Shown here in pieces: positions 3,304 to 36,469 of a stretch of 38,322 bases of DNA. The stretch lies in contig JAHFGV010000022.1 of assembly GCA_023247255.1 (NCBI GenBank), forward strand, positions 1 through 38,322, read 5' to 3'. The notes under the pieces were generated by a model. It did not search any database. It saw nothing but the letters and a program-made list of their open reading frames with translations, and was not told the DNA's origin. Positions within the stretch are counted from its first letter, which is position 1; each line of letters opens with the position of its first letter. The stretch comes from Candidatus Omnitrophota bacterium (GTDB taxonomy: Bacteria; Omnitrophota; Gorgyraeia; Aquiviventales; Aquiviventaceae). The translations under genes and the position numbers were made by a program.

Positions 3304-3363
3304 CCCATTGGAACGTGGAAACATTAACCGGGACGAAAAGAGCGGCTGCGCCGGGGACACCTA

Positions 3364-4451
3364 TTGAGTTACGTAAAAGTAATAGAAATATGATAAACTG
3401 GTTCCATGCGACCCCATGGAACCCAGACAGAGCTTGAACGGCGACGCCGACGGGCCGTTGAACTCTTGGGTAAAGGAATGAACCTGTCGGCAGTGTCCGA
3501 GAAAATAGGTTGTTCGGTAAGTTCCGTGCACTTGTGGAAGGAAGAATACGCCAAGAACGGTGGGGATGGCTTGAATCCAAAACCTGTCCCTGGACGACCC
3601 TCGAAGCTAAGCGGGCGCCAGAAGAAAAGCCTTGTCCGGACTCTCGTCGCAGGAGCGATGAAGAACGGATACCAAACCGATCTTTGGACCACCCGAAGAA
3701 TCGCCCAGGTGATCGGGAAGAAGTTCGAGGTATCTTATCATTCCAATAGTATCTGGTGGCTCCTGAACGAAATGGGTTTGAGTTATCAAAAACCACAGAC
3801 AAGAGCCCGCGAGCGGGATGAGAAGGAAATAAAACAGTGGAAACGCCATTCATGGCCGCATATAAAAAAAGTCCGAAAGGCTTAACATCCCCCTTGTCTT
3901 CTTCGACGAGAGCGGGTTTTGCCTTGTCCCGACTGTCCGAAAGACCTGGGCTCCCATTGGACAAACTCCGATTCTTAAAATCGCCGGGGGATGGACGAAG
4001 ATATCGGCCATCTCTGTCATCAGCGTCTCGGCGGGCAAAAGGAGGATTGCTTTGTATATCCGCTTTCATCCCTTGAAGAACATCCGGCATCCTCAGGTCC
4101 TGACGTTCTTGAGATACCTTCTCAGGCACCTGAACAGAGGATTTGTGCTTTTGTGGGACAGAGGCGGTATGCACGGCCGGGGCGATCAAGAGGTTCCTTA
4201 AAGACCATCCCCGTGTTCATTCGTACTTTTTCCCCGGATACGCCCCTAAGCTTAATCCCGACGAGTTCGTGTGGACGGGCATGAAACGAAGTGTCGCCAA
4301 CAGCGTTGCCAAAGACACGGATGATCTCAGGGGCTTGCTTCGAGGCTCGGCCGAAAGGCTCAAACACTCCAAGAAACTCCTTTGGTCTTGTATCCGTGCC
4401 TCGGAGTTGCCATGGAGATAACATAGCTTCTACTACTTTTACGTAACTCAA
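3364..4451 (+). mobile_element. IS630-family insertion sequence, complete ends
   Basis: The element is bounded by imperfect inverted repeats of about 33 bases that begin TTGAGTTACGTAAAAGTA on the left and match the reverse complement of the right end (TACTTTTACGTAACTCAA). Each end is flanked by TA (3362-3363 and 4452-4453), the target duplication typical of IS630/Tc1-mariner elements. Length is 1088 bp with one transposase region inside. It sits between glmS and a decayed MFS gene and does not interrupt a recognisable gene. Confidence 0.9.
3406..4421 (+). pseudogene. IS630 transposase, split by two frame changes
   Basis: Three reading frames must be joined to get one transposase. Part 1 (3406-3885) is the N-terminal helix-turn-helix region (SAVSEKIGCSVSSVHLWKEEY). 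Part 2 (about 3870-4201) carries the first catalytic Asp in VFFDESGF and the second in LLWDRGG. Part 3 (about 4170-4421) carries the Glu in LNPDEFVW and ends SELPWR. The first change lies after an A7 run at 3864-3870 and is +1. The second, also +1, is at a G run around 4179-4182 and looks like a plain indel. Frameshifted expression is known in some IS630 relatives, so the first could be programmed. Two shifts together suggest that this copy is inactive, or that there are sequencing errors in homopolymers. Confidence 0.8.
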
Positions 4452-4499
4452 TAGGTCTGGAGATAGACGCTTTTATTCATCTGTCAGACTCCAGACCTA
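4452..4499. repeat. 11-bp inverted repeat next to IS630 right end
   Basis: TAGGTCTGGAG at 4452-4462 is matched exactly by CTCCAGACCTA at 4489-4499, leaving a 26-base loop. The left arm begins with the TA target duplication of the IS630 element. It may be the palindromic target of the insertion or a terminator stem without a T run. The next 150 bases (4500-4650) show no supported gene. Confidence 0.6.
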
Positions 4500-8589: not shown

Positions 8590-9438
8590 ATGAGCACTGT
8601 TGGGTCGATGAACAAGATCCATTCGTCAGCGATCGTTGGGAAAGACGTGAGGCTCGGGGAGGATAACGAAATCGGGCCGGGGTGCGTCATCGAAGACGGA
8701 GTCGTCTTGGGCTCGCGCAACAGGCTTTGGATGAATGTCTACGTCGGGCCGGGGACGACGATCGGTGATTCCAATCAAATCCATATGGGAGCGGTCATCG
8801 GGCATCTGCCGCAGGATGCGGCTTTTACCGGAGAGCCGACTTTTACGAAAATCGGCAGCCGCAACGTCATTCGCGAGTACGTGACGATTCATCGGGGGAC
8901 GAAACCCGACTCTGAAACGCTCATCGGGGATGAAAACTTCCTCATGGCCAACGCGCACGTGGGGCACAACTGTCAAGTCGGCAATCGAGCGACGTTGGTT
9001 AACCTGGCGACATTGGCCGGCCACTGCGTCGTTGAAGATGGGGCGGTTCTCTCTGGGATGGTGGTGGTGCATCAGTTTTGCCGGATCGGACGCTTGGCGA
9101 TCATCAGTGGGCTCTCGGCGGTGAACAAAGACGTGCCTCCTTTTATGCTCTGCGGCGGACGGCCCGCCGTTATCCAGGGGCTCAATGTTGTTGGCCTGCG
9201 ACGGGCCGGATTCTCTCCAAACTCTCGCGAGGGAATCCATGCGGCCTACAAATTATTGTACCGGTCAGACCTGAATGTTTCCCACGCCTTGGAAATGATC
9301 CAGAAACAATGTCACGGCGAAGAACTGACGCAGCTGGTGCGGTTCATCCAATCCGCTAAACGCGGGATTTGTGCCGGAATCCAGGCAGAGCCGGACACCC
9401 TTCGACCGCGCAAAGTCAGGGTACTCAGGGCTCGTTAA
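8590..9438 (+). CDS. lpxA: UDP-N-acetylglucosamine O-acyltransferase
   Basis: LpxA starts lipid A synthesis by moving a hydroxyacyl chain from acyl carrier protein to UDP-GlcNAc in the cytoplasm. The 282-residue protein shows many hexapeptide repeats of the left-handed beta-helix and the active-site motif NAHVGHNC (H123 and catalytic H126), followed by TLAGH, VVHQFCRIG and the C-terminal helical segment with GLRRAGF. The start may be 8590 or the ATG at 8608 (MNKIHSSAIVG); an AGAGG directly abuts the first. The last residues (VLRAR) and the TAA lie inside a 162-bp repeat, so the repeat insertion supplied the C-terminus. The gene is not next to fabZ, lpxB or lpxD, which is unusual; lpxD is 9 kb away. 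Confidence 0.93.
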   Translation: MSTVGSMNKIHSSAIVGKDVRLGEDNEIGPGCVIEDGVVLGSRNRLWMNVYVGPGTTIGDSNQIHMGAVIGHLPQDAAFTGEPTFTKIGSRNVIREYVTIHRGTKPDSETLIGDENFLMANAHVGHNCQVGNRATLVNLATLAGHCVVEDGAVLSGMVVVHQFCRIGRLAIISGLSAVNKDVPPFMLCGGRPAVIQGLNVVGLRRAGFSPNSREGIHAAYKLLYRSDLNVSHALEMIQKQCHGEELTQLVRFIQSAKRGICAGIQAEPDTLRPRKVRVLRAR

Positions 9439-9588
9439 GAAATAACTGCATCCATTTGACCGGGGGCTTTTGACCCATGGCTGCGTTGCTCATCGCTTAC
9501 ATCCTCATCGAGGATGCTCGCTCTTCGCGCCTTGCCCTGAGTCAAAATCCCCACGGCCAAATAGCGCAGTCATTTCTTAACGAGCCCT
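9427..9588. repeat. R1 repeat, copy 1 (162 bp, inverted ends)
   Basis: The ends are AGGGCTCGTTAAGAAATAACTGC and its near-perfect complement GCAGTCATTTCTTAACGAGCCCT. Two other copies of identical length are at 15763-15924 and 31021-31182. There is no ORF inside, only conserved internal palindromes such as ATCCTCATCGAGGAT. It looks like a non-autonomous MITE-type element. Its left end overlaps the last four lpxA codons. Confidence 0.9.
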
Positions 9589-9632
9589 AAGCGAGCAAGC
9601 CCCCGACGAATTCTAGCAGCAGCAAAAAGGGC

Positions 9633-9661: not shown

Positions 9662-9667
9662 AAATTC

Positions 9668-9852
9668 AAGCCCTGCACTGTGCGTGAGGTCCCCAGTCAA
9701 CGTGAACCAACACGATGTGACCGGGAATCCGGCTTCCGTTGGGGTAGGCAGGCTCGATTTTGATCGGGTAGCCGATCCCCAGTGGAGAGGGTACCCACCT
9801 GACAAGGTTGGGTTCAGCATGACGGAGACCAACGGCAGAAGCGGGGTTTTTT
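9668..9852 (+). ncRNA. ssrS: 6S RNA candidate
   Basis: This non-coding stretch of about 185 bases folds by eye into one long interrupted hairpin. CCCTGC (9671) pairs with GCGGGG (9841), GAACCAAC with GTTGGGTTC, TCCGTTGGGG with CCCCAGTGGA as ten continuous pairs including wobbles, and GGCTCGAT with ATCGGGTAGCC at the tip. The opposed strands CACGATGTGACC and GAGGGTACCCACC leave an open middle, as in the 6S RNA central bubble that mimics an open promoter and binds sigma-70 RNA polymerase. A good promoter lies upstream and a T6 run follows the closing stem. 6S genes are known near rarA homologues in several bacteria. Another structured RNA is possible; no SRP, tmRNA or RNase P core motif is seen. 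Confidence 0.6.
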
Positions 9853-13784: not shown

Positions 13785-14056
13785 CTGGGCTTTTACAAAA
13801 ATAGCCAACGCGTTGACCGAGTGTTGTGTCCTATTCCAAGAGAAGTAATGAGGATTGTGTCATGTTTTATGAGTCATGTGTCATGAAAAAGCAGAAAATA
13901 AACAGGCATCTCAAGCACGGCCAAAGTGCTCCTTTTGCTTTCCATGACTCATGACACAGACGGGAGCACTGCAGATTAGAACTATGATTTACTTTCTTCT
14001 TGGCCACGGGCCACTAGGCTACTAACCGCGATGCATTTCGTAAAACATCTGTTAGG
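13784..14056 (+). repeat. R2 repeat, copy A
   Basis: It starts ACTGGGCTTTTACAAAAATAGCC at the cysM stop codon and ends near GATGCATTTCGTAAAACATC, two imperfectly inverted ends. The inside holds GTGTCATG/CATGACAC-type palindromes around a 57-base core at 13886-13942. The core begins AAAAAGCAGAAAATAAACAGG. In copies B and C the same core lies in the opposite orientation relative to the outer ends. Confidence 0.85.
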
Positions 14057-15724: not shown

Positions 15725-15762
15725 GTGTCTCACAGGACGACGAAACTTATCGCGTTTGTATA

Positions 15763-15924
15763 AGGGCTCGTTAAGAAATAACTGCATCCATTTGACCGGT
15801 GGCTTTTGACCCATGGCTGCGTTGCTCATCGCTTACATTCTCATCGAGGATGCTCGCTCTTCGCGCCTTGCCCTGAGTCAAAATCCCCACGGCCAAATAG
15901 CGCAGTCATTTCTTAACGAACCCT
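15763..15924. repeat. R1 repeat, copy 2 (162 bp)
   Basis: Same structure and exact length as copy 1, with ends AGGGCTCGTTAAGAAATAACTGC and GCAGTCATTTCTTAACGAACCCT. It is flanked by TA on both sides, a possible target duplication. It separates the carrier gene from moeB, whose ATG begins 13 bases later, so any moeB promoter or leader must come from the repeat or from read-through. Confidence 0.9.
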
Positions 15925-15936
15925 TAGCGACGGGAC

Positions 15937-22710: not shown

Positions 22711-22770
22711 GCCTGGGGCTGATATTCTGCAGAATCCGAGGAAAGAACCCCGTGTGAGCGGCCAGTGGCC

Positions 22771-22823
22771 AATACCAACGAATTATCCTCTGGCATTGTC
22801 GCGTTAGATAATTCGTTGGTATT
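22771..22823. repeat. R3 hairpin, copy 1
   Basis: Two perfect 17-base arms (AATACCAACGAATTATC and its complement) enclose a 19-base loop CTCTGGCATTGTCGCGTTA. A second hairpin with the identical loop is at 33568-33612. The stems differ at one base pair (CCAACG/CGTTGG here, CAAACG/CGTTTG there), so the change is compensatory. Confidence 0.85.
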
Positions 22824-22905
22824 AGCAAGGTGCTGAAAAATGCCAGTCGGTTCAGGGTTCGGGGTTCTGGACTGGTGGCCAGGACCCGGCTCACCGACGA
22901 GCGGT
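22822..22905 (-). repeat. R4 repeat, partial copy
   Basis: TAGCAAGGTGCTGAAAAATGCCAGTCGG and the following GTTCAGGGTTCGGGGTTCTGG are the reverse complement of the right part of the R4 element at 36333-36469. CTCACCGACGAGCGGTGG matches its left half. The far terminal repeat is missing. Confidence 0.7.
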
Positions 22906-22946
22906 GGCTATTTTTGTAAAACCGCATCAATTCTTAGAGTGAACAA

Positions 22947-23627
22947 GTGACGATGGACCAGCCGGGTATCATCCCCATGGTTCAGGGCATGGATACGCTG
23001 CGATGGAATCCGGCGACGGATCCGCACATTGCTTGCCATTATTCGGCCGAGGCCCCTTCCGGAAAGGCCCTGTGCAAGCTGGCTCTTCAGACAAAAGTCG
23101 GGCTTTCCCTGCGCCAAGACTTGCTTTTGGGTGTGACGGCGATGCGGGTGTTGGAGGATGCGGATCTTCTTTGCCGGCTGGTGGAGTCGTTGAAAGATTA
23201 TTCCGTGCAGTGGCTTTTGCTGGACAGCGCCCCGATGGTCGAAAACCGAAAGATAAGTGAGTGGACGCGGCAGATGCCCGGGCGCGTGGCGTTCTGTATC
23301 GGGTCGGGCGAAGCGATGCAGCAGCAGTTCTACGCCGGGGTCGATGCTGTGCTGATTCACCGAGTCGTTGAGACGCCAAGCGTTCCTCCTTTATTGAGCA
23401 TGCGTTACGGGGCTGTGCCTGTGGTGCCGAGTATCGGTATCGAGGCTGCGGCGGTGGTGGATGTCAGCTGGCAAGCGGACTGCCAGAAGACGGCGACAGG
23501 ATTTGTGTTTGACGCATCCTCCGTGGATGCGATGATCGATGCAATCAAAAGAGTCGTTGCCGCATTCCGTGACTACGCTCTATGGCAAGCCCTGATGCGT
23601 CAGGGTATGTGCATGGCCCATCTGTAG
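22947..23627 (+). CDS. Glycogen-synthase-like C-terminal half, degenerate active site
   Basis: The 226-residue product aligns by eye with only the second Rossmann half of bacterial glycogen synthase (GlgA, GT5). RWNPATDPHI at the start equals the NGIDxxxWNPATDPxI hinge, and GKALCKLALQTKVGL, MPGRVAFCIGSGEAM, LSMRYGAVPVVPS and ATGFVFDASSVDAMIDAI follow in order. In the part that binds ADP-glucose, the family pattern VSRLVDQKGFDLL reads VTAMRVLEDADLL, so the Arg and Lys that hold the phosphates are Ala and Glu. FEPCGL reads VETPSV. The N-terminal acceptor-binding domain is absent. It is probably not a working synthase; it may be a pseudogene with an intact frame or a recruited non-catalytic protein. 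Start codon is GTG with a weak ribosome site. Confidence 0.7.
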   Translation: MTMDQPGIIPMVQGMDTLRWNPATDPHIACHYSAEAPSGKALCKLALQTKVGLSLRQDLLLGVTAMRVLEDADLLCRLVESLKDYSVQWLLLDSAPMVENRKISEWTRQMPGRVAFCIGSGEAMQQQFYAGVDAVLIHRVVETPSVPPLLSMRYGAVPVVPSIGIEAAAVVDVSWQADCQKTATGFVFDASSVDAMIDAIKRVVAAFRDYALWQALMRQGMCMAHL

Positions 23628-31020: not shown

Positions 31021-31182
31021 AGGATTCGTTAAGAAATAACTGCATCCATTTGACCGGGGGCTTTTGACTCATGGCTGCGTTGCTCATCGCTTACATCCTC
31101 GTCGCGGATGCTCGCTCTTCGCGCCTTGCCCTGAGTCAAAATCCCCACGGCCAAATAGCGCAGTCATTTCTTAACGAACCCT
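31021..31182. repeat. R1 repeat, copy 3 (162 bp)
   Basis: Ends are AGGATTCGTTAAGAAATAACTGC and GCAGTCATTTCTTAACGAACCCT; length is identical to the other copies. It occupies nearly the whole gap between mdh and gltA and ends 21 bases before the gltA ATG. It may carry or block transcription into gltA. Confidence 0.9.
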
Positions 31183-32378: not shown

Positions 32379-33566
32379 ATGAAACTCCACGAATACCAAG
32401 CCAAAGAACTTTTTGCTTCCGTTAAGATTCCGGTCTGTCGGGCAGCGGTGGCGACTACTCCTGAGCAAGCCGCATCCGTCTATGAGACCCTTCGGGATCA
32501 GACCTCGACAGATCCCTTCGTGTGCAACGTTAAGGCACAGATCCATGCCGGCGGACGCGGCAAATCTGGAGGGATCTTGATCGCCCGCAGCGCGCAAGAG
32601 GCATGCGACCAAGCGGAAAGCCTTCTGGGTCGTCGGCTTGTGACTAAGCAGACCTCCTCCGAGGGCCTGCCTATTTCCGCCGTCCTTTTGGAAGAACGGA
32701 TGGAAATCACTCAAGAGCTGTATCTGGCCCTTACCATCGATCGGTTCCAGGCCAGCCCCGTGATTTTGGCCAGTCGGCGGGGAGGCATGGACATCGAGGA
32801 AGTGGCCGCCACAGATCCCTCGGCGATTCTTCACGAACGATTCGACATCTTCGAAGGCCCGACGCCCGCAACCCTGGCGCGCATCCCTTCAGGACTTGGT
32901 CTAAGCGGCGCGCTGGCCGATCAATGCCGGGACATTCTTTGCGGGCTCTGGAAACTTTACGAATCCCATGACGCTTCCCTCATTGAGGTGAATCCACTCA
33001 TCGTGAGCCCCGATGGGAAACTCATTGCCTTGGACGCAAAAGTACTTCTCGATGACAACGCCCTATTCCGCCATCCGGATTTGGCCAAGCTTCGCGATGA
33101 AAGCCAGGAGCATCCTTTGGAACTCAAGGCCAGCCGCATCGGTATTTCTTACGTCGGGTTAGAGGGAGACATCGGCTGCCTGGTTAACGGGGCAGGATTG
33201 GCGATGGCTACTAACGACATCATTAAACTCTGCGGGGGTGGTCCCGCGAACTTTCTTGATGTGGGTGGTGGAGCCAATGTCGAGCAGGTCGCCCATGCGT
33301 TTCGCATCATCCTGGCCGATTCCCGCATCCGGGCGATCCTGGTCAACATCTTTGGTGGCATCATGCGTTGTGATTGGATCGCCCAGGGCTTGCTGAATGC
33401 GACTCAAGAACTCCAGGTCAGAATTCCAATCGTCGTCCGTCTGCAAGGCACCAACGTCGAGGAGGGCCGCAGACTTCTCACCCAAGCCCAGCGGCTCAAT
33501 CTCGTCAGCGCAGAAGAGCTCTCTGAAGCGGCGAAGAAAGTCGTCGAGCTTGCCCAGCGATCCTAA
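32379..33566 (+). CDS. sucC: Succinyl-CoA synthetase, beta subunit
   Basis: Together with SucD it interconverts succinyl-CoA and succinate with ATP or GTP. The 395-residue protein starts MKLHEYQAKELF and has the ATP-grasp region KAQIHAGGRGKSGG (near residue 50), EVNPLIV with metal-binding Asn (near residue 206) and the CoA-ligase half with LVNGAGLAMATND, FLDVGGGANVEQV and NIFGGIMRCD. All conserved residues look intact. A response-regulator gene and an R3 hairpin separate it from sucD, where the two subunit genes are normally adjacent. Confidence 0.95.
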   Translation: MKLHEYQAKELFASVKIPVCRAAVATTPEQAASVYETLRDQTSTDPFVCNVKAQIHAGGRGKSGGILIARSAQEACDQAESLLGRRLVTKQTSSEGLPISAVLLEERMEITQELYLALTIDRFQASPVILASRRGGMDIEEVAATDPSAILHERFDIFEGPTPATLARIPSGLGLSGALADQCRDILCGLWKLYESHDASLIEVNPLIVSPDGKLIALDAKVLLDDNALFRHPDLAKLRDESQEHPLELKASRIGISYVGLEGDIGCLVNGAGLAMATNDIIKLCGGGPANFLDVGGGANVEQVAHAFRIILADSRIRAILVNIFGGIMRCDWIAQGLLNATQELQVRIPIVVRLQGTNVEEGRRLLTQAQRLNLVSAEELSEAAKKVVELAQRS

Positions 33567-33567
33567 T

Positions 33568-33612
33568 CAAACGAATTATCCTCTGGCATTGTCGCGTTAG
33601 ATAATTCGTTTG
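33568..33612. repeat. R3 hairpin, copy 2
   Basis: Arms of 13 bases (CAAACGAATTATC and its complement) flank the same 19-base loop as copy 1 (22771-22823). It starts one base after the sucC stop codon. The stem base pair that differs from copy 1 is changed on both strands. Confidence 0.85.
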
Positions 33613-33620
33613 TATGAGTA

Positions 33621-36332: not shown

Positions 36333-36469
36333 CTAGCAGGTTGCGGAAAAACCCTTCGTGGTTCTGGGTTCAGGGCAAATACACCACCGCTCGTCGGTGA
36401 GACGGGTCATGGCCCCCAGCCCAGAGCCCCGAACACTGAACCGACTGGCATTTTTCAGCATCCTGTTAG
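36333..36469 (+). repeat. R4 MITE-like repeat
   Basis: Terminal inverted repeats are CTAGCAGGTTGCGGAAAAA and TTTTTCAGCATCCTGTTAG, with four mismatches. The 137-bp element has no ORF. Partial copies are at 22822-22905 (reverse) and 19736-19756 (right end only). Confidence 0.75.

Follow-up and report, generated by a model that had tools for sequence, protein, structure and literature searches.

The R3 hairpins very probably belong to a TA-targeting, MITE-like family of non-autonomous elements that is moved in trans by a transposase, and they are best filed as a new family of an ordinary kind of element. The two copies considered initially lie in the window, that is, the whole analyzed stretch of 38,322 nucleotides, which comes from a 2.18-Mb draft genome of 64 contigs (91% complete). 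In the proposed mechanism, a transposase acting in trans would recognize the terminal inverted repeats of R3 and insert the element at a TA dinucleotide, presumably duplicating it. The candidate mover would be an IS630-type or another TA-specific transposase. The elements would thus have spread recently across the intergenic DNA of this lineage.

The first-pass annotation had reported two hairpins (22771-22823 and 33568-33612) with an identical 19-base loop and a stem pair altered on both sides, C-G at 22771 versus A-T at 33568, and we verified the coordinates, the loop and the change. The window contains exactly two copies of the 19-mer CTCTGGCATTGTCGCGTTA (Table 1), whereas 0 occurrences are expected from 100 shuffles, even allowing three mismatches. 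In copy 1, the arms (22768-22787 and 22807-22826) are 95% complementary, and the hairpin folds as RNA with an energy of -27.6 kcal/mol (z = -6.2). In copy 2, the outer stem is disturbed by a change of ATAC to ATC and by mispairs, and its left end, CTAAT, provides the stop codon TAA of sucC (ORF end 33566). Copy 1 has the gene for a glucan branching enzyme on one side and a glgA-like reading frame on the other. A reading frame at 22947-23627 (226 aa) matched the GlgA models in their second half only (about 240-458 of 477) and had no Pfam match; its product is possibly a truncated or divergent glycosyltransferase.

Table 1. Coordinates of R3 copies in the window, of a repeat adjoining copy 1, and of the ~118-bp element with the same type of ends elsewhere in the genome
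Feature	Position	Strand	Remarks
Single-hairpin (B-type) copy 1	22768..22826	+	arms ATACCAACGAATTATC/GATAATTCGTTGGTAT, 19-nt loop, outer end TTAG
Loop CTCTGGCATTGTCGCGTTA of copy 1	22788..22806	+	19-mer search of the window
Different repeat (TAGCAAGGTGCTGAAAAATGCCAGTCGG...) adjoining copy 1 at a common TA	22824..22914	+	right limit approximate; outside the R3 element
Single-hairpin (B-type) copy 2	33563..33618	+	outer stem imperfect
Loop of copy 2	33581..33599	+	same 19 nt as in copy 1
~118-bp element copies	C45:9509, C18:64283, C53:7299, C20:47702, C18:36255		

A genome-wide search for the loop with up to three mismatches gave 20 matches (none for the reversed-sequence control), and blastn with the longest form as a query located about 23 R3 loci scattered over many contigs. 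The finding of only two copies, which the first-pass annotation had named as contrary to its reading, is therefore not what was observed in the genome; many dispersed palindromic copies are what a mobile repeat would show, and to that extent its reading is supported. Ten of the loci are single B hairpins of 54-55 bp (both window copies included), six represent a 127-bp element with two hairpins, and the rest are pieces. The 127-bp form consists of hairpin A (TAATACAAACGCACTTATTGTTGAGACATTGAGTGCGTTTGTATT), a linker of ~30 nt, and hairpin B, and its six near-complete copies are 94-98% identical. Three to four of the pieces comprise only the right half of B (L012, L013, L018, L071), each broken within the loop. 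According to mechanical ORF calls, which left several cases ambiguous, the copies are mostly intergenic and occur in both orientations. As in MITEs, the family is dispersed, multi-copy and mainly intergenic, and its members are small (55 and 127 bp, against an upper limit of 500 bp for MITEs), have terminal inverted repeats, and are non-coding, being too short for a transposase ORF to fit. The 127-bp element had no blastn match in the 383 other genomes of the phylum (384 sampled), and the right half of B had none in 39 relatives. We also observed isolated 13-14-nt ends, CTAATACAAACGCA, without the remaining element (C37:11437, C42:904 and C9:1232 of genome G000; L058, L061 and L049), one of them immediately 5' of an ATG; these may be excision footprints, products of decay, or the result of hairpin misassembly.

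The first-pass annotation had interpreted a conserved loop in a covarying stem as the mark of selected structure. Neither part of this argument held across the family. Substitution rates, computed from 15 full copies free of gaps, are 4.6% for the loop and 4.3% for each of the two arms. Since its divergence is the same as that of the arms, the R3 loop is not specially conserved, and the likeness of the copies reflects recent copying, for which equal divergence of loop and arms is expected. In the stem, 93.8% of the pairing cells (17 copies by 19 pairs) are paired, and three pairs are changed on both sides. Two of these are the outermost ones, near the flank, and the third, which alone lies further in, is the C-G pair at 22771, present in one of 17 copies, while A-T is the family majority at this position. 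Several other copies carry mispairs and G-U pairs, and mismatched stems were the other observation that the first-pass annotation had set against its own reading. Covariation exceeded the shuffle control on some measures, an excess that relatedness of the copies can cause by itself. A simulation of independent substitutions at the observed rate gave 0.15 compensated pairs expected, with a probability of 0.14 for at least one. In addition, two published reports describe template switching between the arms of an inverted repeat as yielding paired changes without selection (PMC8794818, PMC8604942). The compensated R3 pair is most plausibly due to template switching that homogenized the arms, or else to two changes that coincided by chance. 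The extra loop conservation and recurrent compensation that mark a structured regulatory RNA were thus not found, and the appearance of a conserved loop with covariation is accounted for by recent amplification of a repeat. More generally, when two paralogous hairpins differ by a paired change in the stem, this says little in favor of selection, which calls for caution in similar cases.

These results bear directly on the proposal that R3 is transcribed and under selection as an RNA hairpin whose loop binds a protein or an sRNA, serving as a riboregulator common to metabolic genes. The high stability of the hairpin, the compensated inner pair, and the position of many copies between co-directional genes, where they would be transcribed, agree with such a role. 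However, besides the unremarkable loop and the broken pairs of several copies, the orientation relative to co-directional flanking genes is mixed (approximately ten sense and five antisense copies by manual count). Rfam places no family at the hairpin positions (the only match in the window is 6S RNA at 9667-9851), and no promoter- or terminator-like site lies within either window hairpin. The association with carbon storage or the TCA cycle noted in the first-pass annotation is correct for the two window copies, which follow the genes for glucan branching enzyme and sucC, but it does not extend to the genome, where the flanking genes are unrelated. Judging from their translations, the neighbors of other copies are apparently frames for an aminoacyl-tRNA ligase, a tRNA methyltransferase, NADH dehydrogenase, pilin, ruvB, and molybdenum cofactor and sugar biosynthesis. 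The gene context gives a metabolic regulon no support, and we regard the riboregulator as highly improbable.

The R3 unit is defined by its ends. It is bounded by the terminal inverted repeats CTAATACAAACG...CGTTTGTATTAG, and these are found, with small changes, on hairpins of different interior at C9:43325, C10:34967 and C28:12594. The ~118-bp element, whose C-rich palindromic interior is unrelated to that of R3, has ends of this type as well, CTAATACAAA(A/C/G)G...TTGTATTA (Table 1). Common ends on unrelated interiors argue for recognition of the ends, as predicted for a transposase, rather than for a function of the loop. The lineage contains a MITE-like family whose common ends enclose interchangeable interiors. 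A more elaborate version would describe a modular family (A-type, B-type, composites, and the unrelated 118-bp core) with one end type and an undescribed transposase of the lineage, in which the loop-broken right halves would reflect single-stranded or hairpin-opening intermediates, not ordinary decay; we consider it unlikely in this full form.

The flanks of the elements are compatible with TA as the target. In five cases, R3 directly adjoins a member of a second repeat family (TARCAGGMTGCKGAAAAA...), and the boundary falls exactly on a TA or on the equivalent position; the junctions read TTA four times and TCA once, and the same position is TA in most uninterrupted copies of the TARCAGGMTGCKGAAAAA repeat. 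A member of this family (about 133 bp, with (C)TARCAGGMTGCKGAAAAA ends) is present in the window at 36334-36468. By manual count, roughly half of the full R3 copies and 5/5 copies of the 118-bp element have a TA at each outer end, while several R3 copies lack it at one or both ends. In some copies, the outer bases are inverted-complementary and not direct repeats (TGA/TCA, TCA/TGA), so that they could equally belong to the palindrome or to a target duplication. The pattern as a whole fits insertion at TA, with a putative duplication of the target.

Mobility by another route was suggested in the first-pass annotation, with a search for REP-type or IS200/IS605 transposases as the check. Under this explanation, R3 would be a REP-type element, mobilized when a RAYT/Y1 (IS200/IS605-like) transposase acts on its hairpin in single-stranded form. 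The genome contains nine Y1_Tnp matches; R3 is short, palindromic, multi-copy and intergenic, as are REP/RAYT repeats, and the right-half copies broken inside the loop would suit such a mechanism. But eight of the Y1 loci have no R3 hairpin within ~1.5 kb, and the repeats or hairpins near several of these RAYT-like loci start with GGGGACAG instead. In addition, published REPs have a head of the GTAG/GTGG type (PMC2817692), which the R3 ends lack when their flanks are compared with Table 1 of that paper, and the end type of R3 recurs on a second family of unrelated interior. We therefore find mobilization by a RAYT very unlikely.

The first-pass annotation also recommended looking for integron-like sites. 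If R3 copies were attC-like recombination sites, the GTTAGAT at the loop-stem junction could be taken as the GTTRRRY half of attC, which it matches by sequence reading. The opposite end, however, has no RYYYAAC partner box, leaving the R boxes unpaired. No integron integrase scored above the TIGR02249 cut-off; the weaker tyrosine-recombinase matches have counterparts in 14/14 control genomes. The R3 copies are also spread over many contigs, next to ordinary genes and outside cassette arrays. An integron origin is accordingly so improbable as to be negligible.

A parent element for the preferred MITE-like family was sought among the transposases of the genome. The window contains an IS630-family element (3359-4456) with 29-nt ends that are 97% complementary, but these ends (CCTATTGAGTTACGTAAAAG) differ from those of R3, and the element was rejected as the parent. 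Its DDE_3 match is split in two, and its transposase may be interrupted. The five DDE_Tnp_1 loci were rejected as well, none of them having R3-type ends. Hence the draft assembly yielded no autonomous element with R3 ends at its IS630 and DDE_Tnp_1 loci; within it, R3 shares its ends only with other non-autonomous repeats. The missing parent is weak evidence because the draft is 91% complete, repeats break assemblies, and the search covered the IS630, DDE_Tnp_1 and Y1/RAYT families. Type II and orphan MITEs need not share their ends with an autonomous transposon.

Outside this genome, viral contigs had no match to TGGCATTGTCGCGTTAGAT. An exact search for the ends in a wider genome collection gave two matches. 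One, in a Nitrospirota MAG (L130), is a hairpin with R3's ends and a different interior; the other, in Edaphocola flava, has a GC-rich core, looks like an unrelated terminator, and was not accepted as a relative. No literature on palindromic MITEs in Nitrospira was found. When 28 genomes of the order were searched with a covariance model, about 18 places were detected in one genome of a related genus (G001, L166-L183), all palindromes of the form GGGGACACAAACAAATT...AATTTGTTTGTGTCCCC with variable loops. They were not accepted as R3, since the outer sequence is different and the resemblance lies in an ACAAAC stem, and we read them as a putative separate REP-like repeat. In addition, the model detected a hairpin that bears CTAATACAAA(C/T)G at its ends and precedes a T run, present once in each of two congeneric species from a related genus (G020 and G396; L185 and L184). 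The two loci appear to be orthologous, and the hairpin is possibly an old copy with R3's end type.

The ERIC/IRU/RU-1 and Correia elements belong to another host group and have other ends than R3. Bacterial MITEs such as RUP, ERIC and Correia are small and intergenic, with terminal inverted repeats and a terminal TA (PMC2229807, PMC10969869). Among the closest counterparts is the RUP element of Streptococcus pneumoniae, which is 107 bp long and targets TA, and for which mobilization by IS630-Spn1 has been proposed. Like R3, RUP is a short non-autonomous, multi-copy and intergenic element with terminal inverted repeats and a terminal TA, clustered with other repeats (PMC2229807, PMC10969869). 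The two differ in copy number (about 23 for R3 versus 108), in the lack of a found end-matched IS for R3, and in the R3 interior of one or two near-perfect hairpins; the comparison is one of features. ERIC/IRU/RU-1 (127 bp) and Correia resemble R3 in size range, strong palindromes, terminal inverted repeats with a terminal TA, and intergenic location (PMC2229807). The resemblance covers these features and not RNase III processing, an IHF site or a promoter.

Further repeats were observed in the window. One is an imperfect palindrome of ~165 bp that carries GTTAAGAAATAACTGC close to its ends; it represents a further family in this genome and occurs at 9424-9591, 15761-15926 and 31021-31182, as well as at L096 (120-281). 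The short repeat GGGCTTTTGCAAAAATAGCC is located at 13787, 22906, 27444, 33623, 35293 and 38284, and thus near both window copies of R3.
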